Part shown: in pieces, positions 7,673 through 35,581 of the stretch
Layout: every line of letters starts with the position of its first letter
Numbering within the stretch: position 1 is the first letter of the stretch
NCBI RefSeq assembly: GCF_027111335.1
Contig: NZ_CP114288.1
Coordinates: forward strand, 3,348,001-3,412,000
Reading direction: 5' to 3'
Origin: Flavobacterium aquiphilum
GTDB lineage: Bacteria; Bacteroidota; Bacteroidia; Flavobacteriales; Flavobacteriaceae
DNA length: 64,000 bases
Translations under genes and position numbers: made by a program
Notes under the pieces: model-generated
Told to the model about the DNA's origin: nothing
The model's database searches: none
What the model saw: only the letters and a program-made list of their open reading frames with translations

Positions 7673-7710
7673 CTTCTTTAAATTTTTAATTTTTAATAAA
7701 ATTTTCAATT

Positions 7711-7805
7711 ATACCATTTAGTAATGTAAAATAGTTTTTCCCTCTCCCCAACCCTCTCCAAAGGAAAGGGGGAGATAGGATTGTTTTTTTAATTCTAAAT
7801 GGTAT
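7711..7805. repeat. Small palindromic element (MITE-like) between xusE and GH10
   Basis: A 95-bp element bounded by perfect 11-bp terminal inverted repeats, ATACCATTTAG (7711-7721) and CTAAATGGTAT (7795-7805). The core is C-rich on one side (CCCTCTCCCC, with CCCTCTCC again) and G-rich on the other (AAGGGGGAGA), far from the local base composition, and can form a hairpin. The outer end touches the stop codon of the gene ending at 7805. It has no coding capacity. It could be a dispersed repeat or an intra-operon RNA hairpin; no target duplication is obvious. Confidence 0.6.
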
Positions 7806-8836: not shown

Positions 8837-8884
8837 TTTCTTTATTATTAAATTTCATAATACATTAAGTTGAATCTTAATGTT

Positions 8885-10621: not shown

Positions 10622-10651
10622 AATAATTAAATTAAAGTGTGTGTTTTAAAT

Positions 10652-13687: not shown

Positions 13688-13731
13688 TATTCTATAATTT
13701 TATTTTTAAATTTTTAAAAAAATCATTTTTA

Positions 13732-15621: not shown

Positions 15622-15631
15622 AGTTGTAATT

Positions 15632-18600: not shown

Positions 18601-18835
18601 ATTTGGTATTGCCTTTTACTGTAATTGTTGTTCCTGGCACACCATGGCCGTCTTCTGACGATGTTACCCTTCCAGTAACTGTGATTTGCTGTTCGATGTT
18701 ACTGTTTACAACATATTTTGAACCAGAGAAGTCATTCTCTGCAGCAGATAGTTGCGTGATAAACAAAAACTGAAACAAAACTCCTAAAGGCAGATACTTA
18801 GCTCCGTTTAGAATTTTAGATAATTTTATTTTCAT
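15632..18835 (-). CDS. xusA: SusC-family TonB-dependent transporter (first gene of the xus operon)
   Basis: A 1067-aa outer-membrane transporter. Residues 1-31 are a long signal peptide; residues 50-125 form the carboxypeptidase-regulatory-like domain; the TonB-box-like TLDEVIVVGYG lies at 129-139; then come the plug (ILVDGVERPI, VYGVRGANGVILITTKRG) and the barrel, ending NLGANIIF. It is the first gene after the strong predicted promoter at 19463-19550, with an unusually long leader of about 620 nt. It corresponds to XusA in order and size class. Confidence 0.94.
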   Translation of the reverse strand: MKIKLSKILNGAKYLPLGVLFQFLFITQLSAAENDFSGSKYVVNSNIEQQITVTGRVTSSEDGHGVPGTTITVKGNTKLSVTTDFDGRYKISVPSDAVLVFSFVGFKTVERQVGSNTEINVVLTPEKTTLDEVIVVGYGKQKKASLVAAITQVSGKVLERAGGVQSIGAALTGNVPGLITSASSGMPGEEDPQLFIRGASTWNNAQPLILVDGVERPINSVEISSVESVSVLKDASATAVYGVRGANGVILITTKRGQSGKALIRTTFNTTVKTLSKLPAKLDSYDGLMVKNSVIENELALSPSSWADYVPQAIINKYRYPANVQESERYPNVDWQHALFNDYAMSYNASLNVSGGTKAVKYFATADFLSEGDMFKKYNNNRGYDPGYGFNRLNVRSNLDYQVTPSTVFKVGLAGSRGIKKSPWGASGGEYTMWDAAYSTAPDVFLPYYEDGSWGYYAPNQGKASNSVRNLAISGIQYVTTTRLNTDFTLEQSFDKWVKGLSFKGMVALDNSFVEGDRGITDLYNDVQQKYIDPATGVALFSKTYDSNNRFDFQEGVKWSTTGGSVRDYSTYRKLFYQLQLNYQTKIADNHHITALGLFSRDQQAMGSEIPHYREDWVFRTTYNYADKYFIEYNGAYNGSEKFSKENRFAFFSSGGLSWIVSKENFMKSTESFLDLLKIRATYGEIGDDNINGRFLYQSQWAYGGNSVLGTTGEAAEASPYTWYKQATVGNEDVHWEKAKKSDIGADFSFFKGFVTGTFDYYQEDRTDILLSGSSRAIPSYYGAVAPVANLGEVKNKGYELELKFSHTFGNGLNLWWTTNFTHAKNKIISADNPELLPDYQKSEGYSIGQAHSYVSQGYYNTWDELYASTVHSTNDAAKLPGNYNILDYNGDGVIDSKDNIPFGYTGTPQNTYNNTVGVNWKGFSAFVQFYGVNNVTRQVVLTSLSGQNHVVYDQGFYWSKDDTNADQPVPRWLATASEYNNGSRYMYDGSYLRLKNAEIAYTFDKKANWIKSSGLQSIRFYLNGNNLFLWSNMPDDREANYAGTGWASQGAYPTVKRFNLGANIIF

Positions 18836-19462
18836 GTTATTTAAATATTTTGAACTTGATCTATACTTTATACTGTTATCAATACTGCGACAAACAGATA
18901 CAGATTTGATTAAACTAATTTTATATTCTTCCCAGCCGAAAATTGATAAGCTTTCATTTTTTATTCAGGCTGATAATTATAATGTCATATTCAAACTTGT
19001 AACTGTTTAAGTAAAATCATTTGAATTTCTGGATGAAAAATTGTCTTGAAAAAGTTGAATACATCAAGACACCAGTTGTTAAGTAAAAGATCATTAAATT
19101 GTTTTTGAATCATAATGCTTTTATAATTCGCATATGATTTAAAAATTAAAGGCCGTTTAAAAGAATCAGCCCTTAAAAAGGTTTTCCGAAAAAATAAAAT
19201 TTTGGTCATAATGGTTAATAAATTCTTGGTTAATTGTTTGGTGTTTTTTTTAATTATAATTTGTTCACTGTAGCATTCGTTTAAAAGTTTAAGTATTTGA
19301 TTCTATTTCTTTATTTTAAAAAAATATTGTTCTAATAAATCAGTCTTTAGAAACAATAGGAATATCGCTCAATATATTTACCCCCGTGATTTAACAATAT
19401 AATTGTGGGATAGGAAAATAAATCCTGAAATATTATCATATCGATAAAAAAATTACAGGATT

Positions 19463-19550
19463 CAAAAGTATTTGTTAAAAACAGATGTCAACTATCTTTA
19501 CGTTACAGATGCTTTACACTACGTTACATAAAGGACAAAAATGTGTTACA
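19463..19550 (-). promoter_or_regulatory. xus operon promoter with TGTAAM direct-repeat operator (site A)
   Basis: On the minus strand there is a perfect -7 box TACTTTTG (19470-19463) with TTGACA about 18 nt upstream. Further upstream are TGTAAM repeats, written on the plus strand as GTTACA 19502-19507, TTTACA 19513-19518, GTTACA 19523-19528 and an extra GTTACA 19545-19550, spaced 11, 10 and 22 bp, so all lie on one helix face. The distance from the -7 box to the first repeat (39 bp) is identical at site B (32437-32502). AraC-type activators bind such phased direct repeats. The regulator is inferred to be the HTCS at 318-4370. Confidence 0.75.
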
Positions 19551-19793
19551 TAGCAAAAAAGAATACCATTTCCCCAGATTTTACAAGAGAAAACGGGTGC
19601 TATTAAAAATGAGAGAGGTAAGACTTGATGCAGATTTTTTATAGATATCTGATTTTTTAAGTAAAAAACATATCTAAAAAGCAGTTCAATTTATCCCAAA
19701 ATCAACATTAGGATTTTATAGTTTTTTTTTATGCAGATTTGCTTCGCCTGTTCGGTGTCGATCGAGGAATGTCATTCAGTAAATGATGTAGTT

Positions 19794-19854
19794 ATTCTCA
19801 CAAGGACGCAAAGATAAAATTGGATTTCTTTGCGTCTTCGCTACTTATGAGAAT
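19794..19854. repeat. Imperfect inverted repeat with GACGCAAAGA/TCTTTGCGTC core
   Basis: Outer arms ATTCTCA (19794-19800) and TGAGAAT (19848-19854) enclose inner arms GACGCAAAGA (19805-19814) and TCTTTGCGTC (19827-19836). It resembles the CGCAAAG-type dispersed intergenic repeats seen in Flavobacterium genomes. It lies about 185 bp past the 3' end of GH115 and lacks a T tract, so it is probably a repeat, not an intrinsic terminator. Confidence 0.5.
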
Positions 19855-20037
19855 TATATTTAGATAAAATCTAGTAAAAAGTCTTAATCCTAATGACATT
19901 GATTGCTCAAGTCGCAGATTATTGCAGTTTTTTTATGCTAATTAGTCTGATTTATGTCTAATTTGCAACCTGAGGTTAACAAAGGATGGAGTAAATAATA
20001 CCCTAATTCTGTTATACTCTTTACATTAAGTATTTCA

Positions 20038-22569
20038 TTAAAAGTTCTTCAGGAAAATCCTGTTACTTTCTGGAGCCCCCAAATAAGAAGGTTTTAATCC
20101 GCCGCAGTCTATAAGTATTTTTTCAAGTACAATTCCCGGATCTAATGCTCGGATGCGAAGTGTATGTTTTCCAGATTTTAAAATGCTGTGTTTGGTTGCA
20201 GATTTAATAATATGTTCTGCCTGCCATTTCCCTAATTCTCCTCTATACTTTCCATTAAAATTCACTATCTGCGGGATATCACCGTCAAAAGAAATTTCAT
20301 AACGGAGTCCTTTATTACTATTAAAATTAAGGGTAGGCGCCAGAAGAAGTTCTACATTAAACTCCCCTGTTGAAGTAAAGTTAATTTCATACTCCACAAA
20401 AACATTTTCCTTTGGATCGGGATAAAGATTCTGCGGAAAAGTGGTAATACCGCTTTTTGTTTTTCCAAAATTAGGAATAACTCCCCAATGGATTCTTTTT
20501 GCATCACCAACCGCTGAAAAATGTTCTGCCTCAATGGACACATAGCCGTCTTTTTCAACAAAAACCGTTGGTACATTTTTCTCGGATTCAGCAACGTATT
20601 TGGTTTCAGGCATTATATTTTTAGGCAAATCATTCCAATTTTTGTACCCAATACGCATCTGATCCATGATATGAACCCACTTCCCACCAGATATTTCATT
20701 GTTGTATTTATATTGAAGAACGGAATCTCGTTCAAATTTACTTTTTACTAAATCTGCATAATAATTTGCCTCAATATCTTTTTGCTGAGAAAGTATTTTA
20801 TTTTTAGCTTGTGCAAAATACATTTCGTACAAATTACTGCAGGCATCTACTGGATACAGTACTAATTGAAAATAAGCATCTTTATATTCCTTTGGCATTT
20901 CATTATAAACCCTATATGCATCCAATGCTAAATTTTTATAATCATTCACCACCGTTTGAAATTCATTATAATTTTCCAGACTGTACGTTTGACTATCAAG
21001 CATTTCAGGGGTTACACGACGATTAAACTTTGGATATGTGTTTAGAAATCCAGCAATCTCTTTGGAATATTTTTTTCCAAACTGTTCTGCAGCCCACTGC
21101 TCAGTAAAATCAAATAAATTTTGCGAATTAAATTTCTTAGGATTCCATGCCATATCTAAAAAAAAGCTGATTGGAAACTCCATTGGTTTTAAGTCCCCAA
21201 CATTGACAACCCAAACTTTATCCACGCCGTGTTCGTAGCTCAGGTTCATTTGCTCCCAGACTCTTTGTATCGGGCTTATGTTAATCCATTTTGAATTTCG
21301 TGGTGCTCCCACGTAATCAAAATGATAATACATTCCGTACCCTCCTTTATGTAATGGTTTGGTTAGATCAGGAAGTTTGCGCACATTGCCCCAATTATCA
21401 TCGCAAAAAAGTAAAATTACATCATCAGGTACACGCATACCTTCATCATAATAATCCTGAACTTCTTTATATAATGCCCATACCTGTGGAGTAGCATTGG
21501 GTGCTTTTCCAGTGACCTGAGAAATAATTTGACGTTGTTCTTTTACTATGTTTTCCAGTAAACTAATGTTAGTACCTTTACCCATAGCCTCATCTCCATC
21601 GCCACGCATACCAATTGTTACCAGTTTTTCCCAGCTTTTACTACGAGTTATACCACTTTTCCAAAATTCATCCAGAACAGTTTTATTTTTGGAATAATCC
21701 CAGACATTAGGAAGATTATTCTTTTTTATGTAGCGATGCCAATCCGTTTGGGCTAAAGCCATGGGTTCATGGTGTGATGTTCCCATAATTATTCCCATTT
21801 CATTGGCCAAAGGCCCACTTGCAGCGTCATCATCATAAAAAGCATTGCCCCACATCGCCGGCCACATATAATTCGCTTTTAAACGCAACAGTAATTCGAA
21901 AACTTTTTCATAAAAACGACTGTTAAAACCTCCAAAAGTCTGCTTCGCCCAACCGCTTAAAGCCGGTGCTTCATCATTAAGAAAAATTCCTCTGTATTTC
22001 ACTGCAGGCTCACCATCAGTATATGTTCCTTTTATAAAATAAATATTATCATTTTGCTTTACAGGAACATCTGCCCAATAGTACCAAGGAGAAACACCAA
22101 TTTGTTTTGATAATTCATAAATCCCATAGATTGTCCCACGTTTGTCGCTGCCTGCAATGACGACCGCTTCCTGAACGTCTTTAAAAGGATTTTGAACATT
22201 CTGAATAATAAATTTTTCATTTTTTCCAATCAAAGCTTTTCCATCAATTTTCTTTTGTTTGATCAAATTATCGATAATAGGATTTCCCACCATCCCAATT
22301 ATAACAAGAGGTGAAGAAGCAACTGGATTTTGATTAAGGACAAAAGGTTTTGCACCTGTAACTTTTTCAAAATCTGATTGTAAATTACCTACAGCCCGCA
22401 TAATACCAGCATCCAACGTGGTATTTACAAAAAAAGAAAGATTTACCGATTTTTCTTTTAAAACAATAACATCAGAACTTCTTACATTCTTTATAAAAGG
22501 TTCTGTAGCTCTTAAAGGCCAATAAATACAGATTATCAATACTGTAATCCAACTGTGAATACTTTTCAT
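20038..22569 (-). CDS. GH115 xylan alpha-1,2-glucuronidase
   Basis: An 843-aa secreted enzyme (signal peptide MKSIHSWITVLIICIYWPLR, cut near ATEP) with the length and conserved blocks of GH115: KYRGIFLNDEAPALSGW, RLKANYMWPAMWGNAFYDDD, MGIIMGTSHHEPMA, LFCDDNWGNVRKLP and HFDYVGAPRNSKWI. A C-terminal beta-sandwich follows from about residue 690 (VSIEAEHFSAVGDAKRIHW). GH115 enzymes remove glucuronic or 4-O-methylglucuronic acid from internal xylose residues. No GH67 is seen in the window, so GH115 is the only visible debranching route for uronic acid. There is no Cys lipobox, so a periplasmic location is likely. It is a separate transcript: a terminator precedes it and the xus promoter follows it. 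Confidence 0.93.
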   Translation of the reverse strand: MKSIHSWITVLIICIYWPLRATEPFIKNVRSSDVIVLKEKSVNLSFFVNTTLDAGIMRAVGNLQSDFEKVTGAKPFVLNQNPVASSPLVIIGMVGNPIIDNLIKQKKIDGKALIGKNEKFIIQNVQNPFKDVQEAVVIAGSDKRGTIYGIYELSKQIGVSPWYYWADVPVKQNDNIYFIKGTYTDGEPAVKYRGIFLNDEAPALSGWAKQTFGGFNSRFYEKVFELLLRLKANYMWPAMWGNAFYDDDAASGPLANEMGIIMGTSHHEPMALAQTDWHRYIKKNNLPNVWDYSKNKTVLDEFWKSGITRSKSWEKLVTIGMRGDGDEAMGKGTNISLLENIVKEQRQIISQVTGKAPNATPQVWALYKEVQDYYDEGMRVPDDVILLFCDDNWGNVRKLPDLTKPLHKGGYGMYYHFDYVGAPRNSKWINISPIQRVWEQMNLSYEHGVDKVWVVNVGDLKPMEFPISFFLDMAWNPKKFNSQNLFDFTEQWAAEQFGKKYSKEIAGFLNTYPKFNRRVTPEMLDSQTYSLENYNEFQTVVNDYKNLALDAYRVYNEMPKEYKDAYFQLVLYPVDACSNLYEMYFAQAKNKILSQQKDIEANYYADLVKSKFERDSVLQYKYNNEISGGKWVHIMDQMRIGYKNWNDLPKNIMPETKYVAESEKNVPTVFVEKDGYVSIEAEHFSAVGDAKRIHWGVIPNFGKTKSGITTFPQNLYPDPKENVFVEYEINFTSTGEFNVELLLAPTLNFNSNKGLRYEISFDGDIPQIVNFNGKYRGELGKWQAEHIIKSATKHSILKSGKHTLRIRALDPGIVLEKILIDCGGLKPSYLGAPESNRIFLKNF

Positions 22570-22948
22570 TAATTTTTATTTTAATTAGTGATTTATATTT
22601 TCTAATAGTAGTTTTCCGTAACTGTTAATATAATAATAACCTAATCAGCTACATTATTCATTTTACAAGTAAACTTTATAAATGTCAATTCCCCACAGGT
22701 AGTTAAATAAATTTGTACTAATCGGTGAAATTTTTGACCAATGCACAATCTGGTTTTAAGTAGATACTAGTGATTATTTATTTCAAAAATATTGAAAAGA
22801 TACTAAAAAAGCCGAGAGAATTATCCCTCGGCTTACCTAACTAAAACAAACTTAAAACTAACAAATTATTAAGGTATCCTGTAAAAACTACACTCATAAT
22901 TGTTAACCAAAATTCTTATTTAAATTAGTTTTTCATTAAATCCAAAAC
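22570..22948. other. Spacer between the third SusD and GH115
   Basis: It holds the SusD terminator (22803-22834) and presumably the GH115 promoter. A motif ACAATCTGGTT at 22744-22754 weakly resembles the CAAT-N-GGTTG elements upstream of the GH31, symporter and third SusC genes. Confidence 0.45.
22803..22834 (-). terminator. Rho-independent terminator of the third SusC/SusD operon
   Basis: The arms AAGCCGAG (22809-22816) and CTCGGCTT (22827-22834) pair perfectly. On the minus strand the hairpin runs into TTTTTTAG. It lies about 115 bp after the SusD stop and separates this operon from GH115. Confidence 0.88.
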
Positions 22949-24895
22949 TTAGTATCCAGGATTTTGATAAGCTTTCTTTTCAGCATCTGTCATTTCCATC
23001 CCATCAAGCTGACCAACTGGAATTGGTCTTAAATAATGATATGGCAAGATAGTTCTTGTTATTGTTGCAGGAGTATGATTGCCATAACTAGCTCCTCCAA
23101 TTCTATAGGTTCCTGCTAACTCATTCCATTTTTGAGTACGTACTAAATCATACCAACGGTATCCCTCACCAAAATATTCACGTGAACGCTCAGCTAGAAT
23201 ATAGTTAATGTCAATAACAGCTGGAGTTGCTGCAGTAAGTGCCGCACTATTATCTGCAACTTTTGCTACATTACCATTATTATCCCAACGCCATTTACCT
23301 GCACGTGCACGGATAACATTAATCAGGCTTCTGGCTGTCATAGATCCAGTTGCTCCTTTTACAGCAGCTTCAGCAGCTACAAAATAGAGTTCTGAGAATT
23401 TAGCAATAGGAAATGGTCTTGTACTTGCGGCATTAGGCTGTCCTAAAGTTCCAGCATTGTCTGTACGGTATGGCCCCATTTTCCAAAATCCCGGATACAC
23501 AATTCTACTAAATCCTAGAGGAGAGATTACATAATCAGATCTACCTGGTAATACTCCGGCACCAATACCACTATCGCCTGCTCCAGAAGGATATGTTATA
23601 GCAGTAGCAGGTTCTGCTCCCAAAAACGTTAATACAGCATCTTTTGAAGTTATAGGCAATGAATTTGCATTATACAATGTTGTTACATCTGTTAATCCAG
23701 TTCCTTTTAAATTCCAGTTTCCACGATACACTGTTGTAAAAGTACCATCATAACGTGAATCATTTGTTTTATCAGCAAATGTGTTTGTAAAAACATCGAT
23801 AGGAGGAGCCATACGAGTCCAAGGACGTCCTAAAGCCTGAGCCGCTTCACGCTGAACAGGAGATACTAAAGCACCAGCTGCATTTTTACTTTTAATGGCT
23901 GTATAATTCCAGGTTGGCATCCATCCTGCAAAATTATCTGCATCGCCTCCACCAGCATAAGTAAGACTCGATCCGTTATAATACTCATTAGCTTCTGTAT
24001 GGTCTGCATAAAGCAACATTTCTTTATTACGGTCATTAGATCCCAAATTGACATCGTAGAAACTTGCCTGTAAAGCAAAATTAGTCCCAGCATTATTAAT
24101 TCCTTCTAAAGCAACATTATATGCTTCTTGAAAATACCATTGTGCATTGTGACCGTTAGGGTCTGTTCTGGGAGTTTCTGGATAAGTTGGTATATTATTT
24201 GGGTTTTCCAACCACCAAGCATACGTCAAATAAGCTTTTGCTAAATATAATCGAGCCAATGTTTTAGTTGCTGTACCAGTCAATCTAGATGCATCTGGCA
24301 GTTCAGCCACTGCTGCTTTTAAATCAGGAAAAATCCCTTTGGTATAAACTTCTGCTACATTGTTACGTACTGAAAATCTTGAAGGTTTACTATTAAATTT
24401 TAATTCCCCTGCCCCTAGATCCAGAGGAACTCCTCCAAAAGTCTGTACCAACAAGAAATAATCAAATCCTCTGAAAAATTTAGATTCAGCAATCAAACTT
24501 TTTGCAACGCCCACTGCTGCTCCATTTTCAATAATTCCATTGGCAGTATTAATATCCGCAAAGGAATTATTCCATAAGACATCTGAACGACTTGAACTTG
24601 GTGTAATTGTCCCTACACCTGATAAATCATGATCTTTAAAGTTACCATCGGCGCTTTGTGCATAGGTAGACTCATCTGTACCTGTTTCTAATGAATTATA
24701 AAAATAAGCATTTCCATACAGCCAGCGTAAATGTGCATAATGCGATGTTAATCCTTGAATTACACCCTGTTCCGTTTTGAAGTAGCCAGGCTCATAAAAA
24801 TCATGCGGTTTTTCCTCCAATAGGTCAGAACAACCTACCAAACTAAACAAAGCTACTGATCCTACTATTATATTTTTAAATATATATCGTTTCAT
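22949..24895 (-). CDS. SusD-family outer-membrane lipoprotein (third pair)
   Basis: A 648-aa SusD/RagB lipoprotein with leader MKRYIFKNIIVGSVALFSLV and lipobox Cys22. The C-terminal part has FPIAKFSELYFVAAEAAVKG, YILAERSREYFGEGYRWYDL and LRPIPVGQLDGMEM, all typical. It is 11 bp after its SusC partner and ends the operon at a clear terminator. It is from a different SusD subgroup than the two in the xus operon, so it probably imports another xylan fragment class such as substituted oligosaccharides (inferred). Confidence 0.92.
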   Translation of the reverse strand: MKRYIFKNIIVGSVALFSLVGCSDLLEEKPHDFYEPGYFKTEQGVIQGLTSHYAHLRWLYGNAYFYNSLETGTDESTYAQSADGNFKDHDLSGVGTITPSSSRSDVLWNNSFADINTANGIIENGAAVGVAKSLIAESKFFRGFDYFLLVQTFGGVPLDLGAGELKFNSKPSRFSVRNNVAEVYTKGIFPDLKAAVAELPDASRLTGTATKTLARLYLAKAYLTYAWWLENPNNIPTYPETPRTDPNGHNAQWYFQEAYNVALEGINNAGTNFALQASFYDVNLGSNDRNKEMLLYADHTEANEYYNGSSLTYAGGGDADNFAGWMPTWNYTAIKSKNAAGALVSPVQREAAQALGRPWTRMAPPIDVFTNTFADKTNDSRYDGTFTTVYRGNWNLKGTGLTDVTTLYNANSLPITSKDAVLTFLGAEPATAITYPSGAGDSGIGAGVLPGRSDYVISPLGFSRIVYPGFWKMGPYRTDNAGTLGQPNAASTRPFPIAKFSELYFVAAEAAVKGATGSMTARSLINVIRARAGKWRWDNNGNVAKVADNSAALTAATPAVIDINYILAERSREYFGEGYRWYDLVRTQKWNELAGTYRIGGASYGNHTPATITRTILPYHYLRPIPVGQLDGMEMTDAEKKAYQNPGY

Positions 24896-24906
24896 ATTAT
24901 GTTTTA

Positions 24907-27900
24907 TTAAAATGTTAAATTAAGACCCATTAAAAAGTTGCGAGTTGATGGCGTATTTGTACCAATAACTAAAATTCTACGAGGGTATGAATTTACTGCT
25001 TGGTTTTGATCACCTAATGAATTTGTTTCTGGATCCATACCAGACATATCATGATAAGGAGAAAAGAAAACAAATGGATTCTGAACAGAAGTATATATTC
25101 TTAATTTATCAATTCCGACTTTTTTCATAAAATCTTCCTTAAGAGTATAACCAAGAGTTATTGATCTTATTTTCAAATAAGAAGCATCAAAATACCCCAT
25201 AGTTGACATATATTTTGGATTATCACCACTCCTAACTCCATTTGGATTTGGAAAATCTGCACCTGTATTTGTTGGTGTCCAATAGTCTACATCGACATTA
25301 CTGCTTCGTCCATTAAGCAAATTCAGATAACTAGCGCTACCATAAAGTGTACTTACTAAAGTTCCACCGCTTTTGAATGCTCCAACAGCATTAAAATCAA
25401 AACCTTTATACGTTAAGTTAGTATTGAATCCACCTTGAAAGTCAGGATCGGTATCAAGAATTTGTCTATCTGTAGCATCAATTCTACGCGTAGGAGAACC
25501 ATCAGGATTAAAACCTCCAGTATATTTTACTTTAATAGATCCTACAACAGTTCCTGCTTGATTAACACCTGTTGGTCCTGCTTCATATTTATCCATAAAA
25601 GCGTCACCCTCTTGCCAAAGCCCAATTTTTTGATAATCATAAACAGAGGCGATATTATGACCAACAAACCATAAGTTAGCTTCATCCCTATCTTTTCCAG
25701 AAGCAAGAGAAGTAATTTTATTTTTATTAGCATAAAAGTTAACACCCACTGTCCAAGTTAAGCCATTTGGGTTATCCAAAATCACTCCATTTAATGAAAT
25801 TTCATATCCTTTATTTTCTGTAGCACCAACATTTGCTGTATAACCACTAACACCTGATGTTGTTGGCAAGCCAACTCTTTGTAATAAATTTTCCGTTTGT
25901 GTATTATAATATTCTACAGTACCTGTCAAACGGTTACCAAAAAATCCAAAATCTAAACCATAATTCATAGTCTTAGAATATTCCCATCCTAAAGCAGGGT
26001 TAGGCAATTCAGTAACATAAACTCCCGTAGAATAAGTAGTTCCGAAATTATAAGGTCTTGTACTTAAAGTTCCTAAGGTAGCATACGGATCAACTGACTG
26101 GTTAGAAGTTTCACCATATCCTGCACGCAGTTTCAAAGAACTAAGCCAACTAATATCCTTCATGAAAGATTCATTAGAAATAGTCCAGCCAGCTGAAATT
26201 GCCGGATAAGTTACCCATTTGTGACCTTCTGCCAATCTTGATGAACCATCAGAACGCAACGTACCTGAAATAAAATAGCGATTATCATACGAATACATTA
26301 ACCTTGCCATATAAGAACGTAATCCCCATTTTGTATAATCCTGTTCAGACGGTGTGATAGTGATAGGTTCCTCACTTTGTCCCAGATTATAAAATTGAAA
26401 TGCATCAGAAGTAATTCCGTTTCTTGAAATTCTCGAACTATTACCTGTATAACCCTCATTAGAATATAATCCAACAAAATTAATTGTATGTTTTTGGGCA
26501 AAAGTCTTATCATAAGTAATTAAATTCTCAAGTAACCATTGCGTTGACATGAAGTTACTAATTGAAGCATTTGATAAAGTTGCAGCATTTACATCAAAAA
26601 CACCTTGGCCTTCATAATACCCATTATTAGTTGCACGGAAATTCAATCCAGAATTTAATCTGTATTTCAAACCGTCTACACCTGGAATTTTAAGCTCAGC
26701 AAAAATATTGTTATAAGAACTAAACGCTCTGTTTTGGTTAATATACTTGTCGCCTAAAGCATTAATAGATTCTCTTGTATAAACCCATTTATCATCTATT
26801 AATCCCATATTAACAGTTCTCTTTAAATTGCCATTAGCATCATAAGGATTAACCAGAGGCGACATCCCTAAAGCCGCACCAGGCCCAATATTATCACCGT
26901 TTGTAATTGCATAGTTGTTATTAGTAGTAAATCCTACGCGAAATGCAGTCCCAATTTCCTGATCTAATGATGCTCTAAGACTAAAACGCTCATATGATTG
27001 CACAGGCAAAACGGATCCTTCTTTATAATACCCTAATCCTCCAGTATAAGAACCGCCTTCGCTTCCTCCGGAAACACCAAAATCATGACTTATAATTTGT
27101 CCAGAATCATACAACAATCCTTGCCAGTCAGTATTAGTACCTCTTACCTCGTCTCTTCCATCCGAATATAATTTAGTAACATCACGAAGTGCTGCAAACT
27201 TATCGCCATTCATCATATCGTATTCCCCAAAAACATTCTTTACACCACCAAATCCATTATAAGTAAATTTAGGTTTTTGACCTTTATACCCTTTATTCGT
27301 TGTAATCAACACAACTCCATTGGCACCACGAGATCCATAAATAGCAGTAGCAGAAGCATCCTTCAAAATGTCAAGTGATTTTATATCAACAGGATTGATA
27401 TCTCCAATTGACCCTGCAAAAGGAACACCATCAAGTACAACCAAAGGATCATTACTTGCCGTAAGCGATCTGGTACCACGAATACGAATTTGCATGGATG
27501 CTCCTGGTTTTGTAGAGGTTTGAGTTAACTCCACACCTGGTAATCTTGCCTGTAATGCTTGAGTAACATTTCCTGATGCATATTCGCTCAATTCTTTTCC
27601 TGCAATTGTAGATACAGACCCGGTAACTGCTTCCTTACGTACAGCACCGTATCCAATTACTACAATTTCTTTCAAAGTATTGGATTCTTCTTCAAGCTTA
27701 ACATTAATAGTGTTTCGCCCGTTTACATCCACTTCTTTGCTTTTTAAACCCACAAAACTAAAAACAAGAACACCATTTGCAGGCACACTTATGGAGTAAT
27801 GCCCATCAAAATTGGTACTCGCTCCACCCTTTCCTCCTTTTACATTCACATTTGCCCCAGGAATAGGGCCATTGGCATCTGATACTACACCAGTGACCGT

Positions 27901-27999
27901 TGTCTGCGCATTCGAAAACAGTGAGAATGCAAACATCATCATCAAAAAACAAAAACATCTAAAATGCCTCTGTCTACTTGTAACAAAAAAGTTAGTCAT
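24907..27999 (-). CDS. SusC-family TonB-dependent transporter (third pair)
   Basis: A 1030-aa transporter. The start at 27999 gives a signal peptide with a long basic N-region (MTNFFVTSRQRHFR) cut after SNAQ at residue 31. A carboxypeptidase-regulatory-like domain covers about 33-103, a TonB-box-like TLKEIVVIGYG follows at 108-118, then plug motifs (VVLDGVPFAG, YGSRGANGVVLITTNKG) and the barrel ending FLMGLNLTF. A CAATCGGTTGT element at 28113-28123 lies 114 bp upstream and also occurs upstream of the sugar symporter. Confidence 0.93.
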   Translation of the reverse strand: MTNFFVTSRQRHFRCFCFLMMMFAFSLFSNAQTTVTGVVSDANGPIPGANVNVKGGKGGASTNFDGHYSISVPANGVLVFSFVGLKSKEVDVNGRNTINVKLEEESNTLKEIVVIGYGAVRKEAVTGSVSTIAGKELSEYASGNVTQALQARLPGVELTQTSTKPGASMQIRIRGTRSLTASNDPLVVLDGVPFAGSIGDINPVDIKSLDILKDASATAIYGSRGANGVVLITTNKGYKGQKPKFTYNGFGGVKNVFGEYDMMNGDKFAALRDVTKLYSDGRDEVRGTNTDWQGLLYDSGQIISHDFGVSGGSEGGSYTGGLGYYKEGSVLPVQSYERFSLRASLDQEIGTAFRVGFTTNNNYAITNGDNIGPGAALGMSPLVNPYDANGNLKRTVNMGLIDDKWVYTRESINALGDKYINQNRAFSSYNNIFAELKIPGVDGLKYRLNSGLNFRATNNGYYEGQGVFDVNAATLSNASISNFMSTQWLLENLITYDKTFAQKHTINFVGLYSNEGYTGNSSRISRNGITSDAFQFYNLGQSEEPITITPSEQDYTKWGLRSYMARLMYSYDNRYFISGTLRSDGSSRLAEGHKWVTYPAISAGWTISNESFMKDISWLSSLKLRAGYGETSNQSVDPYATLGTLSTRPYNFGTTYSTGVYVTELPNPALGWEYSKTMNYGLDFGFFGNRLTGTVEYYNTQTENLLQRVGLPTTSGVSGYTANVGATENKGYEISLNGVILDNPNGLTWTVGVNFYANKNKITSLASGKDRDEANLWFVGHNIASVYDYQKIGLWQEGDAFMDKYEAGPTGVNQAGTVVGSIKVKYTGGFNPDGSPTRRIDATDRQILDTDPDFQGGFNTNLTYKGFDFNAVGAFKSGGTLVSTLYGSASYLNLLNGRSSNVDVDYWTPTNTGADFPNPNGVRSGDNPKYMSTMGYFDASYLKIRSITLGYTLKEDFMKKVGIDKLRIYTSVQNPFVFFSPYHDMSGMDPETNSLGDQNQAVNSYPRRILVIGTNTPSTRNFLMGLNLTF

Positions 28000-28090
28000 A
28001 AAAATTGATTTAAATTAAAAATTCATTTTGGTTTAGTTAATAAGTGTGTTTTTAACAGAAAACCATTAAAAACACTGTTGTTTATTTTTT

Positions 28091-28123
28091 AACAACTATG
28101 AGCTTCGTAAAGCAATCGGTTGT
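28091..28123 (-). promoter_or_regulatory. CAATCGGTTGT operator candidate upstream of the third SusC
   Basis: CAATCGGTTGT at 28113-28123 is exactly repeated at 30834-30844 upstream of the symporter. A weaker half AACAACTATG begins 21-22 bp away at 28091, echoing the 21-bp phased pair upstream of GH31 (35545-35581). No perfect -7 box is seen downstream. Confidence 0.45.
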
Positions 28124-28247
28124 CTAATTTATTCCTCTATTAAGGCAAAAGCCACTTAATTCCAATCGACAAAAAAAGTCAATTAAAAAAAATAAAATAA
28201 TGTGAATATTAAGGGAACTAGAGAATTAAAATAAATTCTCAATTGAT

Positions 28248-29285
28248 TTACATAAACAATTTTCTTCTTATCCCATAAGGATCAATTGTAATAATTGCCC
28301 CATCCTCTGTATAATCAATTTTAGTAACCTTCATACTTCGCAAATGTGTTACCCCTCTTGATAAACTTGAATCATGATAAAACAAATACCATTCATTTTT
28401 TACTTCACAAATCGAATGATGCGATGTCCATCCGATAACTGGATTTAAAATTCTTCCCTGATAAATAAATGGCCCATAAGGATTATCACCTATGGCATAA
28501 CATATAAAGTGAGTATCTCCTGTTGAGTATGAAAAATAATACTTGCCTTTATACTTATGAACCCAAGAAGCTTCAAAAAAACGACGATTATTATCTCCTG
28601 CTAACAGTTGTTCTCCATTTTCATCCAAAATTTTTATTTCTTTTGGCTCTTCTGCAAATTCAAGCATATCATCCCTGAGCAAAGCTACAATAGGGCCTAA
28701 TGCTCTTTCATTTACTGATGGTTCCTCATTATTTTGGTCATACTTGTTATTTCTGTACTTCTGAAGCTGTCCGCCCCAAATTCCTCCAAAATACATATAA
28801 TGTTTCCCATCTTCATCTTCAAAAACTGCTGGATCGATACTATAACTTCCTTTTATCGCATCAGCCTCTGGTTTAAAAGGCCCAATAGGTGAATCCCCAA
28901 CTGCCACTCCAATCTGAAAAATTCCATCCGCACGTTTAGCAGGGAAATACAAATAATATTTTCCGTTTTTATAAGCTGCATCTGGAGCCCACATTTGCTT
29001 TTCTGCCCACTCCACATCATCAACATGCAATGCAACCCCGTTATCAACAACTTCTGATGAAATATCATCCATCGAGAAAACATGGTAATCTTCCATTCCA
29101 AAATGATCTCCATTATCATTGAAGGGAATCCCGGCATCTATATCATGGGAAGGATAAACATATATTTTACCATTAAATACGTGTGCCGAGGGATCGGCAG
29201 TATAGATATGGGATACTAAAGGCTTTGAAATCGCCAGTTCGTTAATTTCCTCGAAATTAATCTGTTCAATACTATCTTCAGGCAT
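28248..29285 (-). CDS. GH43 beta-xylosidase (cytoplasmic)
   Basis: A 345-aa five-bladed propeller glycosidase. The start is set at 29285 (MPEDSIEQINFEE) because the longer frame to 29393 would overlap the symporter gene. With this start the gap to that gene is 22 bp. The catalytic triad of GH43 is visible: base D31 (YTADPSA), pKa modulator D151 (SIDPAVF) and acid E238 (FFEASWVHKY). There is no signal peptide, so it works in the cytoplasm on oligosaccharides delivered by the adjacent symporter. It resembles the GH43_1 xylosidase group; arabinofuranosidase activity is a less likely alternative. Confidence 0.9.
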   Translation of the reverse strand: MPEDSIEQINFEEINELAISKPLVSHIYTADPSAHVFNGKIYVYPSHDIDAGIPFNDNGDHFGMEDYHVFSMDDISSEVVDNGVALHVDDVEWAEKQMWAPDAAYKNGKYYLYFPAKRADGIFQIGVAVGDSPIGPFKPEADAIKGSYSIDPAVFEDEDGKHYMYFGGIWGGQLQKYRNNKYDQNNEEPSVNERALGPIVALLRDDMLEFAEEPKEIKILDENGEQLLAGDNNRRFFEASWVHKYKGKYYFSYSTGDTHFICYAIGDNPYGPFIYQGRILNPVIGWTSHHSICEVKNEWYLFYHDSSLSRGVTHLRSMKVTKIDYTEDGAIITIDPYGIRRKLFM

Positions 29286-29307
29286 AGTGATAATTTTATT
29301 TAAATAA

Positions 29308-30741
29308 TTAAGTTCTTCTATTTTTAAGTTCTGATTCAATTTGTACTTCCATTTCTTTATTGATTTTATAGAAAAACAACAATCCAGTGCCAATCAAAAA
29401 AGGAATAGCCGGAAAAATACTTACTAATAATTTGATTCCATTAATAGCTACTTCTGTTTGTACCAATGAATTTGGCACGTAATGAAAATAGCCAAGAAAC
29501 AACGTTGTTAAAGATCCTCCAATACTCAACCCTGTTTTTAGTCCTACCATCATCGCTGAAAAAATAATGGCAGTTGCACGACGGTTATTCAGCCATTCGG
29601 AGTAATCAGCAACATCTGCAATCATAGCCCAAAGAATTGGGATTGTGATTCCATAGAAAAAACCGTGTATTATTTGTGAAAAAAACATAAGTCCAATAGA
29701 ATCTGGAGAAAAGAAATAAAACGCGATGATAAACAACGTAGAAATAAACAAAAATGCACCAAAGACATTACGCTTACCATATTTATCAGCGAGATTCTTA
29801 GACAATGTAATGCCGACAATCATAAAAATGATACCTCCTGCATTAAACAATCCAAATCCAGCAGCAACAGGATCATTTCCAAAATGATTTAAACCGATAT
29901 CAGATAACAAATTTAAAATAGGGCTAATAAAAGAGGCTAATTGCTCTTTATTTACATAATTTTCAAAATAATAAACATAAGAACCACCTTTCATTGCCAA
30001 AGTAACAAAAACCAAAGTAGTTAATGTCAGCATAATAAGCCACGGTCTATTTTTAATCAAATCACTCAAATCTTCTTTAACAGTTGACTTTTGCTCTGGT
30101 TTAGGAACTATTCTTTCCTTAGTGGTCAAAAATGTAATTAAAAGCATTATTGTTCCGATAATTGCCAAAACAGTCATTACTTTTTCTATTCCTAAGGCCT
30201 TATCGCCATTTCCGGCACTTTTTATAATTCCAAGCATAAAAACCTGAACAAAAAACTGCGCAAACATGACAGCCACAAAACGATAGGATGACAAACTGTT
30301 TCTCTCAGCCATATCCCCAGTAATTACACCACTTAAGGCAGAATATGGTAAATTATTTCCCGCATAAAAAATCAATAATAAGGTGTAAGTAACTACAGCA
30401 TAGATAACTTTTCCCTTATATGAAAAATCAGGAGTCGAAAACGCCATTAAAGCAACAACTCCCAAAGGAATTGCCGTAAGTAAAATCCAAGGCCTGAATT
30501 TTCCCCATTTTGTTCTGGTTCTATCTGCTAAAACCCCAATTATTGGGTTAAAAACAAAAGCAGCAACTAAACCAACAATTAACATAATAATTGATGAATC
30601 AGTAGGTGACAATCCATATATGTCGGTATAGAAGTAAGCCAAATAGGTCATCAAAGTTTGAAAAACTAAGTTTGCAGCTAAGTCTCCTAAGCTGTAACCA
30701 ATTTTTTCTTTAATGGACAATTTTTGTGAAGTAAAATTCAT
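29308..30741 (-). CDS. GPH-family (MelB/XynP-like) sugar:cation symporter
   Basis: A 477-aa carrier with about 12 predicted membrane segments and the GPH signature ADRTRTKWGKFRPWIL in the loop after the second segment, plus WAMIADVADYSEW later in the protein. The family moves melibiose, glucuronides and xylosides with Na+ or H+. Encoded directly before a cytoplasmic GH43, it should bring xylobiose or related short xylosides across the inner membrane. It has its own control region (30808-30844), separate from the upstream GH10. Confidence 0.92.
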   Translation of the reverse strand: MNFTSQKLSIKEKIGYSLGDLAANLVFQTLMTYLAYFYTDIYGLSPTDSSIIMLIVGLVAAFVFNPIIGVLADRTRTKWGKFRPWILLTAIPLGVVALMAFSTPDFSYKGKVIYAVVTYTLLLIFYAGNNLPYSALSGVITGDMAERNSLSSYRFVAVMFAQFFVQVFMLGIIKSAGNGDKALGIEKVMTVLAIIGTIMLLITFLTTKERIVPKPEQKSTVKEDLSDLIKNRPWLIMLTLTTLVFVTLAMKGGSYVYYFENYVNKEQLASFISPILNLLSDIGLNHFGNDPVAAGFGLFNAGGIIFMIVGITLSKNLADKYGKRNVFGAFLFISTLFIIAFYFFSPDSIGLMFFSQIIHGFFYGITIPILWAMIADVADYSEWLNNRRATAIIFSAMMVGLKTGLSIGGSLTTLFLGYFHYVPNSLVQTEVAINGIKLLVSIFPAIPFLIGTGLLFFYKINKEMEVQIESELKNRRT

Positions 30742-30807
30742 TAGTTATTTTGTTAGTAATTAATATTTATCTGAATACACAATCTCTAAAATTCTTTTGC
30801 CTAAAAG

Positions 30808-30844
30808 GCAATCATGAAGATAGAGAAAAAAAACAATCGGTTGT
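30808..30844 (-). promoter_or_regulatory. CAATCGGTTGT operator candidate upstream of symporter-GH43 operon
   Basis: CAATCGGTTGT at 30834-30844 is identical to 28113-28123. GCAATCATGAAG at 30808-30819 resembles ACAATCATGTTG at 35549-35560. A small hairpin TTGCCT/AGGCAA lies just downstream at about 30797-30811. The position, 70-100 bp before the start codon, fits an activator site. Confidence 0.45.
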
Positions 30845-30942
30845 GTTAACCTGCAAAAAAATAGCATGCGAATAGTTATTCCAATTTTAAGGAACAACTC
30901 AAACCATTACTATATGTTTTCATTTTTAATCTCATCTTTTTG

Positions 30943-32046
30943 CTATAAATTAGTTATACTTTGATAAGCTTTCTTTTGCTTTAAATTGGCATCAAACAAC
31001 AGTGGATAATTTGTTCTACCTTTTATCGGCCAGTCGTTTAACCATGATTGACCATCATGAACACCCCAAAAAGTAACTCTGCTGATTTTGTCTTTATGCT
31101 TCAAGAATAGTCTAAAAAGTGACTCATATCGATTTGCCAATTTGTTTTGGATTGAGTCTGGCAATCCGTTTGGATAAGGATTCATTTTTTTGTTTCCTTG
31201 AAAATTCTGATTTACATCGGCGCCTCTCAGATCTCCGGGATTTGGTAAAACAGTAATATCAAGTTCCGTAAAAGCAACTTTAAGCCCAAGGGCTGAATAA
31301 TCCAAAATACTTTGTTCTATTTCATTTAATGACGGACTGTTTAATCGCCAATGTCCTTGAATACCAACACCGTCGATTTTTCCGCCGCCTGCCTTAATTT
31401 TTTTAATCAAATTAATAGCACCTGCTCTTTTTACAGGTTCTTCGATATTATAATCATTGTAATACAATTCAGCTTTAGGGTCAGCTTTTGCAGCCAATTT
31501 AAAAGCATCGACTAGATACTTATCACCCATAGTATTGAAAAAAACAGACTTTCTTAAAGTTCCATCTTCATTCAGAGCCTCATTAACAACATCCCAGGAA
31601 CCAATTCGTCCTTTATATCTGGAAACAATCGTATTAATATGATCTTTCATAAAAGCTTTCATCTCGACACTGTCTTTAATCTTCCTCATCCACGGAGCTA
31701 ATTGACTATGCCAAATCAAAGTATGCCCGTGAACGAACATTTTATTTTTTTTACCATAAGCCACGAATTTATCTGCAAGAGAAAAATCATATTTGTCCTT
31801 TTGCGGATGAACGAACATTGATTTCATAATATTCTCAGCGGTAATGGCATTAAATTCTTTGCGAATCAGAGAATCTTCTTTTGGTGCTTTTTCTTCGATT
31901 TGGTCCGCGCTTAAAGCTGTTCCAATATAGAATTCATCTTTAAAAACATCCTTTAAAGAAACAGTATATGATTTCTCTTTTTTTAAGCTATAGCTGCTTA
32001 ACATAAAAAGACATACAAATACTAAACATTGGTTTCTCAATTTCAT
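30943..32046 (-). CDS. GH10 endo-beta-1,4-xylanase, second copy (probably periplasmic)
   Basis: A 367-aa single-domain GH10 enzyme with no inserted CBM. The acid/base is E156 (DVVNEA) and the nucleophile E261 (AFTELD); the WHSQ and HGHTLIWH blocks are intact. The N-terminus (MKLRNQCLVFVCLFMLSSYS) is a signal sequence without a lipobox Cys at its end, so unlike the larger GH10 it probably stays in the periplasm and shortens imported oligosaccharides. Its predicted promoter is site B, giving a leader of about 385 nt. Confidence 0.93.
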   Translation of the reverse strand: MKLRNQCLVFVCLFMLSSYSLKKEKSYTVSLKDVFKDEFYIGTALSADQIEEKAPKEDSLIRKEFNAITAENIMKSMFVHPQKDKYDFSLADKFVAYGKKNKMFVHGHTLIWHSQLAPWMRKIKDSVEMKAFMKDHINTIVSRYKGRIGSWDVVNEALNEDGTLRKSVFFNTMGDKYLVDAFKLAAKADPKAELYYNDYNIEEPVKRAGAINLIKKIKAGGGKIDGVGIQGHWRLNSPSLNEIEQSILDYSALGLKVAFTELDITVLPNPGDLRGADVNQNFQGNKKMNPYPNGLPDSIQNKLANRYESLFRLFLKHKDKISRVTFWGVHDGQSWLNDWPIKGRTNYPLLFDANLKQKKAYQSITNL

Positions 32047-32436
32047 AACTTTTTTTTGATTAATTTATTCAATTATATTTTTTACAATGTGATTGTTTTG
32101 GAATTACCCAAAACCACAAGTCCACTATTTTTTTTGAAGAACAACTGGAGAGTAATTCATAATTTTCTATTTATTATTTCTCCTTATAGTTTAGCCTGCA
32201 GTGCTGAAGTTGAATAATAAAGTCTATAATCTGAAAAGCTCTTTAGTTTAATCTTATTTTTTGTCTCTTTCAATTCATATACAATCCCTTTTTCACACTT
32301 AACTAATACTATTTTTAAATAAGTTTTCAAAAGAAGCAGCAATCAAAACATGCAATACAGCACACTTTTAAGAAATAATTATTGATATGAAAAAAAATAC
32401 TGTTTATTTTTAATAATCAATAAAAAAAAGACAATT

Positions 32437-32502
32437 CAAAAGTATTTATTAAAAACTGAGAGCTCTTATTTATTTGTTACAAATACTTTACACTACGTTA
32501 CA
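32437..32502 (-). promoter_or_regulatory. GH10 promoter with TGTAAM direct-repeat operator (site B)
   Basis: The same layout as site A: -7 box TACTTTTG on the minus strand (32444-32437), then GTTACA 32476-32481, TTTACA 32487-32492 and GTTACA 32497-32502 on the plus strand, with spacings of 11 and 10 bp and the same 39-bp offset from the -7 box. The stretch CTTTACACTACGTTACATA is identical at both sites. No TTG -33 box is visible here, in line with activator dependence. Confidence 0.75.
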
Positions 32503-32803
32503 TATAGAAATAAAATGTAACGAACTAGCAATAACCATCTTGCTTTTGACAAAAAACATAAGATTAAGTCTATATTTTTTTTACGAATAATATCTGATCA
32601 TCCTATTTTTACTAGATAACCTGTTTTTTGAAAAAACAACTTAGATATTTTAACGCTTTTTAAGATTTAACCCCTGCAATACAACCAAACCGCTTAAAAT
32701 AAATATTTAAAATAATTATCTTACAAATCAATAGAGAAATATGCCAATTTCTTCAAATCATTGATAAAATGGTTTGTAAATTGTTTATTAAGCGTAACTT
32801 ACT

Positions 32804-35516: not shown

Positions 35517-35581
35517 CAAAAGTATTTTTTAAGAATAAAAACAGAACAACAATCATGTTGAAATAAACAACAATTAGGTTG
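35517..35581 (-). promoter_or_regulatory. GH31 promoter with phased AACAACAAT-N-GTTG repeats
   Basis: A -7 box TACTTTTG on the minus strand (35524-35517) is followed upstream by two 16-bp direct repeats, AACAACAATCATGTTG (35545-35560) and AACAACAATTAGGTTG (35566-35581), spaced 21 bp, two helical turns. The second repeat overlaps the 3' end of the regulator gene that stops at 35574. The neighbouring AraC-type regulator is the natural candidate to bind it. Confidence 0.65.

Follow-up and report, generated by a model that had tools for sequence, protein, structure and literature searches.

Hybrid two-component systems (HTCSs) are a major class of regulators for polysaccharide use in Bacteroides (PMC11253607). 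In Bacteroides thetaiotaomicron, HTCS operators have been described as two-site direct repeats on one DNA face, upstream of the operons of polysaccharide utilization loci (PULs), with an average site distance of 21 bp, motif classes that track the clusters of HTCS DNA-binding domains, and distant operons joined into one regulon (Ravcheev et al., 2013; PMC3878776). Motifs were given there for 16 of 36 B. thetaiotaomicron HTCSs, and the HTCS-regulon section of that paper names none for xylan. In Bacteroides xylanisolvens, mutation of BXY_29350, the HTCS of PUL 43, showed that two operons need it, as do genes in a distant, remnant PUL, so that one xylan HTCS governs several loci, as we propose here; we know of no operator from that account (PMC4855328). 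XynR of Prevotella bryantii is likewise an HTCS required for xylan gene expression (Miyazaki et al., 2003, cited in PMC8002723), and here too we know of no described operator. In the receiver-DNA-binding proteins BT4124 and BT4663, which unlike the HTCS studied here do not belong to xylan systems, a phosphorylation-controlled AraC-type domain binds a susC promoter in EMSA (PMC11253607).

We analyzed a stretch of 64,000 nucleotides from Flavobacterium aquiphilum (the window), which holds an HTCS, a second AraC-type regulator and two runs of xylan genes (Table 1). Reg_prop, Y_Y_Y, HisKA, HATPase_c, Response_reg and HTH_18 all scored above the Pfam cut-off in the HTCS, which unites a propeller sensor, a kinase, a receiver and an AraC-type HTH in one protein, as expected of a hybrid two-component regulator. 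By sequence match, its DNA-binding domain resembles MarA/SoxS-type activators (chains 1bl0 and 7w5w), which have an AraC-type domain with two HTH motifs, and the HTCS segment SRVHLHRK aligns with SKWYLQRM of SoxS. MarA and SoxS act as monomers, whereas at least two tandem units would be implied here.

Table 1. Positions in the window of the regulators, operator and promoter elements, leaders and gene runs.
Feature	Position	Strand	Basis or remark
HTCS, proposed regulator (Reg_prop, Y_Y_Y, HisKA, HATPase, REC, AraC-type HTH_18)	318..4370	+	Pfam; co-occurrence
HTH_18 DNA-binding domain of HTCS	4086..4322	+	Pfam; SRVHLHRKLK in first helix-turn-helix
xus run: SusC1, SusD1, SusC2, SusD2, DUF5627 protein, GH10, GH5	4756..18835	-	ORFs, Pfam; predicted co-transcription
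Predicted leader of xus run, ~620 nt	18836..19458	-	Box placed at -12..-5, and start codon
-7 box TACTTTTG of xus promoter (site 1)	19463..19470	-	Sequence; fits TAnnTTTG
Candidate -33 TTG, site 1	19489..19491	-	Predicted; 18 nt upstream of -7 box
Proximal TGTAAC half-site, site 1	19502..19507	-	Sequence; 31 nt from -7 box
Middle box TGTAAA (GTAAAG), site 1	19513..19518	-	Lineage-variable second sub-site
Distal TGTAAC half-site, site 1	19523..19528	-	21 bp from proximal half-site
Extra TGTAAC (fourth repeat), site 1	19545..19550	-	22 bp further up; absent in G112, G596
Site-2 run: GH10, MFS transporter, GH43, SusC3, SusD3, GH115	20038..32046	-	ORFs, Pfam; predicted single transcript
Predicted leader of site-2 run, ~390 nt	32047..32432	-
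-7 box TACTTTTG of site 2	32437..32444	-	Sequence; fits TAnnTTTG
Proximal TGTAAC half-site, site 2	32476..32481	-	Sequence; 31 nt from -7 box
Middle box TGTAAA, site 2	32487..32492	-	Sequence
Distal TGTAAC half-site, site 2	32497..32502	-	Sequence
Inverted TGTAAC upstream of site 2	32516..32521	+	Also in xus promoter of Flavobacterium sp. HJJ (L044, G596)
Second AraC-type regulator (Reg_prop, Y_Y_Y, HTH_18)	35574..38165	-	Pfam; without kinase or receiver match

Both sites, site 1 (19463-19528) and site 2 (32437-32502), read TGTAACGTAGTGTAAAGYATYTGTAAC-N31-TACTTTTG on the minus strand and share the identical 19-mer CTTTACACTACGTTACATA, so that the original prediction of a common -7 box, common repeats and common spacing to the base was correct. 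At each of them TGTAAC-N4-TGTAAA-N5-TGTAAC ends exactly 31 nt upstream of the TANNTTTG box; the distance of 39 bp first given also counts the box itself. Along transcription the N4 spacer precedes N5, and the scan pattern initially proposed, which had the two reversed, matches exactly at neither site. The N4/N5 pattern gave two exact matches in the window vs 0.07 expected at up to two mismatches, and two matches were reached in 0 of 100 shuffles. Three TGTAAM repeats are indeed present at both sites, but sequence comparison indicates that the conserved core is TGTAAC repeated in direct orientation with a period of 21 bp, not three equal boxes: the exact TGTAAC pair, exactly 21 bp apart, occurs at all three sites of the genome (see below) and in relatives, while the middle box, GTAAAG, differs among lineages. 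A fourth repeat had been noted at site 1 only. This is true of the direct copy, while site 2 has an inverted TGTAAC; the special role suggested for the extra copy is not supported, since the orthologous xus promoters of G112 and G596 lack this copy and its position is one base off the 21-bp register. The 31-nt gap and the flanks are mostly dissimilar between the two sites, with boxes and distances kept, suggesting that the likeness is not the product of a simple recent duplication.

The whole genome (5.05 Mb) contains three exact matches to the motif and none with one mismatch. With up to three mismatches there were 97 places vs 124 for the reversed control, and these looser matches are therefore background. 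The third exact copy lies 1.4 kb beyond the window, upstream of a ten-gene xylan run. All three exact sites precede xylan gene runs, with 31 nt to TANNTTTG in each (the TAnnTTTG-type box of the third is TATATTTG), and they occupy one strand within 34 kb. The proposal that the xus-GH10-GH5 run and the run of the second GH10 belong to one regulon is supported by the conservation and co-occurrence reported below, and a third gene run can be added to the proposed regulon.

In F. psychrophilum, sigma-A promoters have TAnnTTTG as their -7 consensus, and the median leader is 24 nt (PMC9723704). A box of this Bacteroidota sigma-A type is present at all three sites; 18 nt upstream of the box, several relatives have a TTG, as does site 1, and site 2 has none. 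The predicted leaders (~620 and ~390 nt) are unusually long compared with the F. psychrophilum median, which counts against our best explanation. No known RNA was detected in the whole window with Rfam at gathering scores. The xus leader contains a reading frame of 72 aa that three Flavobacterium genomes keep in frame, one of them with 69 aa, and we did not call it a gene because it has no synonymous bias (8 synonymous vs 25 non-synonymous codons between G000 and G112).

When sites were picked by motif alone, the box was found at 30-32 nt in 13 of 15 occurrences (offsets 5-60), and in 8 of 10 without G000, G498 and G593; 20 of the 22 places of the Bacteroidaceae motif scan were scorable for box offset. 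In 20 genomes picked for having the HTCS orthologue or the motif, TGTAAC-N15-TGTAAC with a box at 30-32 occurred at 27 places vs 0 for the reversed pattern, and a homologue of the window cluster was within 1.5 kb of 22 of them. In the regions of 20 further orthologues, 16 exact TGTAAC pairs were spaced at 21 bp, located in six regions and partly overlapping in arrays, vs three pairs at other spacings of 14-31; 13 of the 20 had no TGTAAC pair within ~8 kb of the HTCS. No exact pair was found around 20 HTCS paralogues (six of these control regions came from the Flavobacteriaceae genomes G595, G596 and G599, not from Bacteroidaceae) or in the 24 paralogue loci of the window's family. Stretches L288 and L304 were shorter than 20 kb. 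Four Bacteroidaceae promoters carry four units in 21-bp register.

Xylan genes of Zunongwangia, Salegentibacter, Galbibacter and Bacteroidaceae are accompanied by the same operator geometry. Conservation near orthologous PULs, on which the original prediction had staked itself, was thus observed, though not in every orthologue region. A scan of GTDB contigs with the pattern only (motif and box) returned 19 matches, 10 of which lie by xylan genes (nine in Flavobacteriaceae and one in Bacteroidaceae), and all 10 genomes carry an HTCS orthologue, the weakest at 34% identity (G593). In the stretches examined around the nine other matches, the xylan enzymes and transporters of the window have no homologue, and these matches were taken as chance or other; they come from Rivularia, Richelia, Calothrix, Shewanella, an alphaproteobacterium, Phaeodactylibacter, Delongbacteria, Tannerella and Flexithrix, and three show weak kinase/receiver matches. 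Among 396 genomes of the window's family (without G000), five have the HTCS orthologue and three the motif (up to one mismatch); all three motif genomes, including G498, which helped shape the pattern, carry the orthologue (p = 1e-6, kinship ignored). In Bacteroidaceae without G593, the orthologue was present in 16 of 21 motif genomes vs 45 of 229 others (p = 2e-7, kinship ignored), and for the reversed-motif control in 2 of 8 genomes, with a background of 62/251. As in all our orthologue searches, the best few candidates were scored in each genome; on this basis five of the 21 motif genomes are without an orthologue, exact TGTAAM matches occur in two genomes without one (G007 and G169), and G341 has an orthologue but no operator site was found in it. 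The overlap of motif and HTCS could partly reflect larger plant-fibre degraders carrying more PULs generally. Homologues of the window cluster were found at 11 of the 21 Bacteroidaceae motif loci (L153-L173), the HTCS adjoins the operator site in several Bacteroidaceae loci, and in G751 a PUL similar in gene content to PUL 43 has an operator site before SusC1. Genus-wide, TGTAAM patterns with up to one mismatch gave 59 places vs 52 for the reversed control and were not used alone as evidence.

In a tree of DNA-binding domains, the xylan-HTCS orthologues formed one clade of 57 rows (support 96/94), with the second regulator and the HTCS paralogues outside it. An SRVH helix is present in 52 of the 57 clade rows vs 3 of 47 other rows; with three carriers outside and five non-carriers inside, we dropped the idea that it is exclusive to the clade. 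The 20 held-out orthologue regions comprise 15 with SRVH, four without (L296, L298, L299, L300) and L291, untyped. Operator sites were found in 7 of the 15 and in none of the four, which form a subclade, and this link between operator and helix within the clade is only suggestive. NHIP stands in the window HTCS at the place where S/CHIP is usual. That the sites are candidate operators of the HTCS, as originally proposed, is well supported by the conserved motif and spacing, by the co-occurrence with the HTCS and by the shared clade of DNA-binding domains. Compared with B. thetaiotaomicron, the spacing is exactly 21 bp instead of 21 bp on average, and the predicted sites again form a two-site direct repeat on one DNA face upstream of PUL operons, go with one domain clade and join distant operons into one regulon; added here are the TGTAAC motif, the fixed 31 nt to the -7 box, members in Flavobacteriaceae and four-unit arrays (PMC3878776). 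By its sequence, the architecture matches the HTCS direct repeats described there, and it is a known type of switch. No TGTAAC operator of a xylan HTCS was found in the literature searched; supplementary motif tables, outside that search, may hold one.

The sites might instead serve a different regulator, with the second AraC-type protein as the main candidate, and the HTCS would then co-occur only through shared xylan PULs. That protein is encoded in the same cluster and has an HTH_18 domain, and AraC-type domains bind similarly spaced boxes. Its absence from the clade of motif-linked HTCS domains makes this unlikely, as do the 18 stretches around orthologues and sites, in which it has no homologue of at least 150 bits (best matches in later stretches of other genomes reached ~70 bits), and the several Bacteroidaceae loci in which the HTCS stands beside the site. 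It is less likely still that the repeats act generally, setting promoter strength or serving a global regulator (for example as a Crp-like site), without being specific to the HTCS. Several factors could make use of TGTAAC-like boxes placed beside a -7 box of the housekeeping type, and a Crp-family gene is located at 39040-39726, but the repeat is direct and not palindromic, just three exact copies exist genome-wide, and neither the regions of HTCS paralogues (0/20) nor the family's paralogue loci (0/24) have the pair.

The HTCS could also be a repressor at this operator that releases on sensing a xylan oligosaccharide, a reading that we consider very improbable, if somewhat less so than a general element. 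The repeats are upstream of the -7 box, and the proximal one is just upstream of the -33 position, which is the place of an activator. Although the discussion in PMC7815789 proposes the opposite sign for the HTCS of an arabinoxylan EGE PUL (bound without ligand, transcription blocked; unpublished binding data), mutation of the B. xylanisolvens xylan HTCS led to loss, not gain, of operon expression (PMC4855328). The least probable alternative is that the sites resemble each other as leftovers of duplicated promoter or intergenic DNA without present function; their clustering on one strand would fit, but spacers and flanks differ where boxes and distances are kept, and the recurrence of the geometry in other genera and in Bacteroidaceae largely refutes it.

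The two window sites and the third copy are very probably class-II-type activator operators of the xylan-sensing HTCS, as predicted from their sequence. A periplasmic xylo-oligosaccharide would activate the HTCS, and phosphorylation of the receiver would free its AraC-type DNA-binding domain. Two or more copies of this domain may thereupon occupy the same face of the DNA in head-to-tail order, one per 21-bp unit, which combines TGTAAC with a weaker second sub-site resembling GTAAAG. The unit nearest the promoter, whose end would lie over the -33 region, would bring RNA polymerase to the TAnnTTTG box, 31 nt downstream, giving activation and one transcript per gene run. Observed directly are the arrangement of the operator sequence, the fact that it is conserved in relatives and rare in the genome, and its association with the HTCS clade. 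Whether HTCS and operator form a recognition pair kept or co-transferred across Flavobacteriaceae and Bacteroidaceae is, in our view, evenly balanced. In that case a domain clade with a mostly Val-His recognition helix would read TGTAAC units of 21 bp, always 31 nt from the -7 box. HTCSs would sit head to tail on them, and promoter output would depend on how many units a promoter has: Flavobacterium has two, and some Bacteroidaceae as many as four.

The operator could serve as the basis for a rational xylan-inducible promoter. To our knowledge, few HTCS DNA sites outside B. thetaiotaomicron have been tied to a defined regulator and sugar. The shared operator could also explain the cross-regulation of distant xylan PULs in B. 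xylanisolvens (PMC4855328). One short code, whose geometry can be tested and whose regulator clade is named, would predict xylan-responsive operons in environmental and gut-associated lineages. If the recognition pair holds, xylan regulons would be readable from sequence, including PULs without a recognized xylan enzyme.

Reading and aligning the two window promoters confirmed the shared architecture claimed in the original prediction: on the minus strand, both carry TGTAACGTAGTGTAAAGYATYTGTAAC, then 31 nt, then TACTTTTG, with motif (TGTAAC-N4-TGTAAA-N5-TGTAAC in transcription order) and gap to the sigma-A -7 box (consensus TAnnTTTG) identical. These are two exact motif matches, against 0.07 expected in the window at up to two mismatches. 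The whole genome (5,054,800 bp; window C1:3348001-3412000) holds exactly three, with none at one mismatch; at up to three mismatches the reversed control was commoner genome-wide than the motif. The third site lies 1.4 kb before the window and again has a 31-nt gap, to TATATTTG. Because spacers and flanks differ among sites, it is the boxes and their distances that are kept. ORFs and Pfam matches placed a xylan cluster in the window, including a hybrid two-component regulator (HTCS), the proposed xylan sensor, and a second AraC-type regulator (REG2). The nearest named relative in our comparison was Flavobacterium sp. HJJ (G596; SusC1 93%, HTCS 87%). The HTCS receiver domain reads NHIP, versus S/CHIP in most HTCSs, a motif tied to DNA-binding inhibition in PMC11253607.

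Features of the window and of the compared loci
Feature	Coordinates	Strand	Content	Basis
HTCS	318-4370	+	xylan cluster	ORF + Pfam
SusC-SusD-SusC-SusD-DUF5627-GH10-GH5 run (xus)	18835 to 4756	minus		ORFs + Pfam
xus leader	18836-19458
Site 1	19463-19528	minus	before the xus run	read and aligned
GH10-MFS-GH43-SusC-SusD-GH115 run	32046 to 20038	minus		ORFs + Pfam
Site 2	32437-32502	minus	before the second GH10 run	read and aligned
GH31			after the GH10-to-GH115 run, before REG2 in the gene order given	ORFs + Pfam
REG2	35574-38165	minus	Reg_prop and Y_Y_Y matches, none to a kinase or receiver; next to GH31	Pfam
Third site	C1:3346601-3346627 (L009:18501-18527)	minus	downstream, ten-gene xylan run: GH43, GH3, GH43-CBM6, GH97, GH43-CBM6, GH43, GH115, GDSL, carboxylesterase, SASA
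G723 locus	L223:10249-11618		operator before GH8 gene, near SusC3/SusD3 homologues
G757 locus	L221:10205-12826		operator, gap 32, before fasciclin-domain protein and SusC-type gene
G593 locus	L222:10692-13368		as G757
G341 HTCS orthologue	L118:1381-5454		SRVH present; operator not found

When related genomes were scanned for the operator beside xylan genes, as had been proposed, it proved to be kept in Flavobacteriaceae and Bacteroidaceae, not at every orthologue of the HTCS. Searching 84,980 GTDB species (one genome each) for the motif plus the TANNTTTG box gave 19 matches, 10 of them beside xylan genes. Nine of these came from Zunongwangia, Galbibacter, Flavobacterium and Salegentibacter and the tenth from a Bacteroidaceae MAG; each had a gap of 31 and an HTCS orthologue in its genome, the weakest being G593 at 34% identity. 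The stretches examined around the other nine matches lacked homologues of the xylan enzymes and transporters of the window. Among places selected on the motif alone, 5 of 25 in the window's family (three belonging to the window's own genome) and 8 of 20 in Bacteroidaceae (one being G593) had the box at 30-32 nt; at other offsets within 5-60 nt it stood just twice over the two families together. Among Bacteroidaceae, 11 of 21 motif loci (L153-L173) had a window-cluster homologue within 1.5 kb. At L153 (G723) and L156 (G765), the motif site has an AraC-type protein (open frame of 327 aa) on one side and an MFS transporter on the other; the proximal box is TGTAAT and the -7 box is absent at 31 nt.

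The conserved element is the pair of outer boxes. TGTAAC-N15-TGTAAC with a box at 30-32 nt occurred at 27 places in 18 of 20 genomes that had been selected because they carried the orthologue or the motif (reversed pattern, 0). A window-cluster homologue lay within 1.5 kb at 22 places and at none of the other five, one of which precedes a GH8 gene. The two genomes missed were G494, whose boxes end TTTA with the gap again 31 nt, and G341. A set of promoters selected for an exact TGTAAC pair (18 from Flavobacteriaceae, 8 from Bacteroidaceae) showed strong conservation of the flanking A, the middle GTAAAG and some of the spacer sequence in Flavobacteriaceae, and weaker conservation in Bacteroidaceae. 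For a held-out test, regions of at most 20 kb were drawn around 20 additional Bacteroidaceae orthologues, in genomes lacking the motif at up to two mismatches, with 20 HTCS paralogue stretches (14 Bacteroidaceae, 6 Flavobacteriaceae) as control. Exact TGTAAC pairs numbered 16 at 21 bp (in six regions, partly overlapping in arrays), one each at 20, 22 and 25 bp, and none at other spacings of 14-31; the paralogue stretches had none across 14-31. Exact 21-bp pairs were thus present in 6/20 orthologue vs 0/20 paralogue regions (p 0.01). Allowing one mismatch in the pair, the box followed at a gap of 31 six times, 32 once, and at no other gap of 22-41. Either pair form was found in 7 of the 20 orthologue regions, and neither within ~8 kb in the other 13. 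At the G723 GH8 locus, the adjoining HTCS is 45% identical to the window's. The G757 and G593 loci possibly represent a new xylan-regulon PUL; among the further ORFs scanned there (a subset), Pfam recognised a SusD-type protein or nothing, and none of the window's enzymes had a tblastn match.

Motif and HTCS orthologue also co-occurred. Across 397 Flavobacteriaceae genomes, orthologues scored at least 1275 bits (45-50% identity), clearly separated from all else (683 bits or less), and besides the window's genome were carried by G498, G494, G341, G560 and G228. The motif at up to one mismatch was confined to the window's genome, G498, G228 and G560; two mismatches added G494 with two sites, amid chance matches (25 places vs 17 reversed). 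Leaving out the window's genome, Fisher tests uncorrected for phylogeny gave p 1e-6 (≤1 mismatch) and 3e-5 (≤2), with two of the three motif genomes independent because G498 helped shape the pattern. G341 carries the orthologue yet showed no site in any of four motif scans, and the surrounding 57 kb held no other window-cluster homologue of at least 150 bits. Within the genus (199 genomes), only G112 also had the orthologue; among the places listed, it alone had the extended xylan-type motif, at two sites. Exact TGTAAM matches occurred without the orthologue in G007 and G169. In 251 Bacteroidaceae genomes, 22 had the motif, 62 the orthologue and 17 both; excluding G593, which was ascertained, the orthologue occurred in 16/21 motif genomes vs 45/229 others (p 2e-7, uncorrected for phylogeny). 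The reversed pattern hit eight genomes, two with the orthologue, which is background.

A tree of 104 DNA-binding domains, weakly resolved because it has 112 columns, grouped the xylan-HTCS orthologues in one clade (57 rows, support 96/94) and left the rival regulator REG2 outside it. SRVH in the first helix-turn-helix marked 52/57 clade rows and 3/47 others; all 27 orthologues above 800 bits had it (domain identity to the window HTCS 43-87%), and the three matches below 800 bits lacked it. Sites were found in 0/4 stretches of a nested subclade without SRVH (G804, G689, G705, G720) vs 7/15 with it, which is only suggestive that sites go with this helix inside the clade. Sequence comparison matched the domain to 12aw, a solved HTCS protein, and to MarA and SoxS, two AraC-type activators; SKWYLQRM of SoxS aligned to SRVHLHRK.

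The proposal that a fourth repeat makes site 1 stronger found no comparative support, since the extra TGTAAC lies 22 bp upstream, one base off register, and neither G112 nor G596 has it in the orthologous promoter. An inverted TGTAAC takes its place at site 2 and, in G596, in the xus promoter. Arrays of four TGTAAC-like boxes that keep the 21-bp register exactly and end 31 nt from the -7 box were present in four Bacteroidaceae promoters of the 21 examined (one each in G850 and G709, two in G793); in Bacteroidaceae, unit number is plausibly a dial.

Candidate box positions predict leaders of ~620 and ~390 nt, long beside the median of 24 nt given in PMC9723704. Leaders before SusC1 measured ~325-667 nt in eight Flavobacteriaceae and ~250 nt in G751. 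The xus leader is well conserved (84% mean column identity, three Flavobacterium genomes), and its final 400 nt show a mild excess of folding (z -2.3). A 72-aa reading frame is kept in frame; its codon pattern gives no support for a protein. The leader may be a regulatory RNA.

Dimers of HTCS on 21-bp direct repeats have been proposed in B. theta (PMC3878776), and PMC4855328 reports that a B. xylanisolvens xylan HTCS mutant lost two operons and distant PUL remnant genes. Against activation, the model in PMC7815789 makes an arabinoxylan HTCS a repressor that its ligand releases. PMC11253607 describes HTCS binding to susC promoters as held back without phosphorylation. The -7 box is placed at -12 to -5 in PMC9723704. 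On this placement the two TGTAAC boxes would lie at about -49 to -44 (proximal) and -70 to -65 (distal), so that the proximal 21-bp unit would extend to the -33 region. A unit reaching that region occupies a class II activator position. Most probably, the HTCS would act at the window sites as a class II-type activator, through inferred steps leading from ligand to activation.
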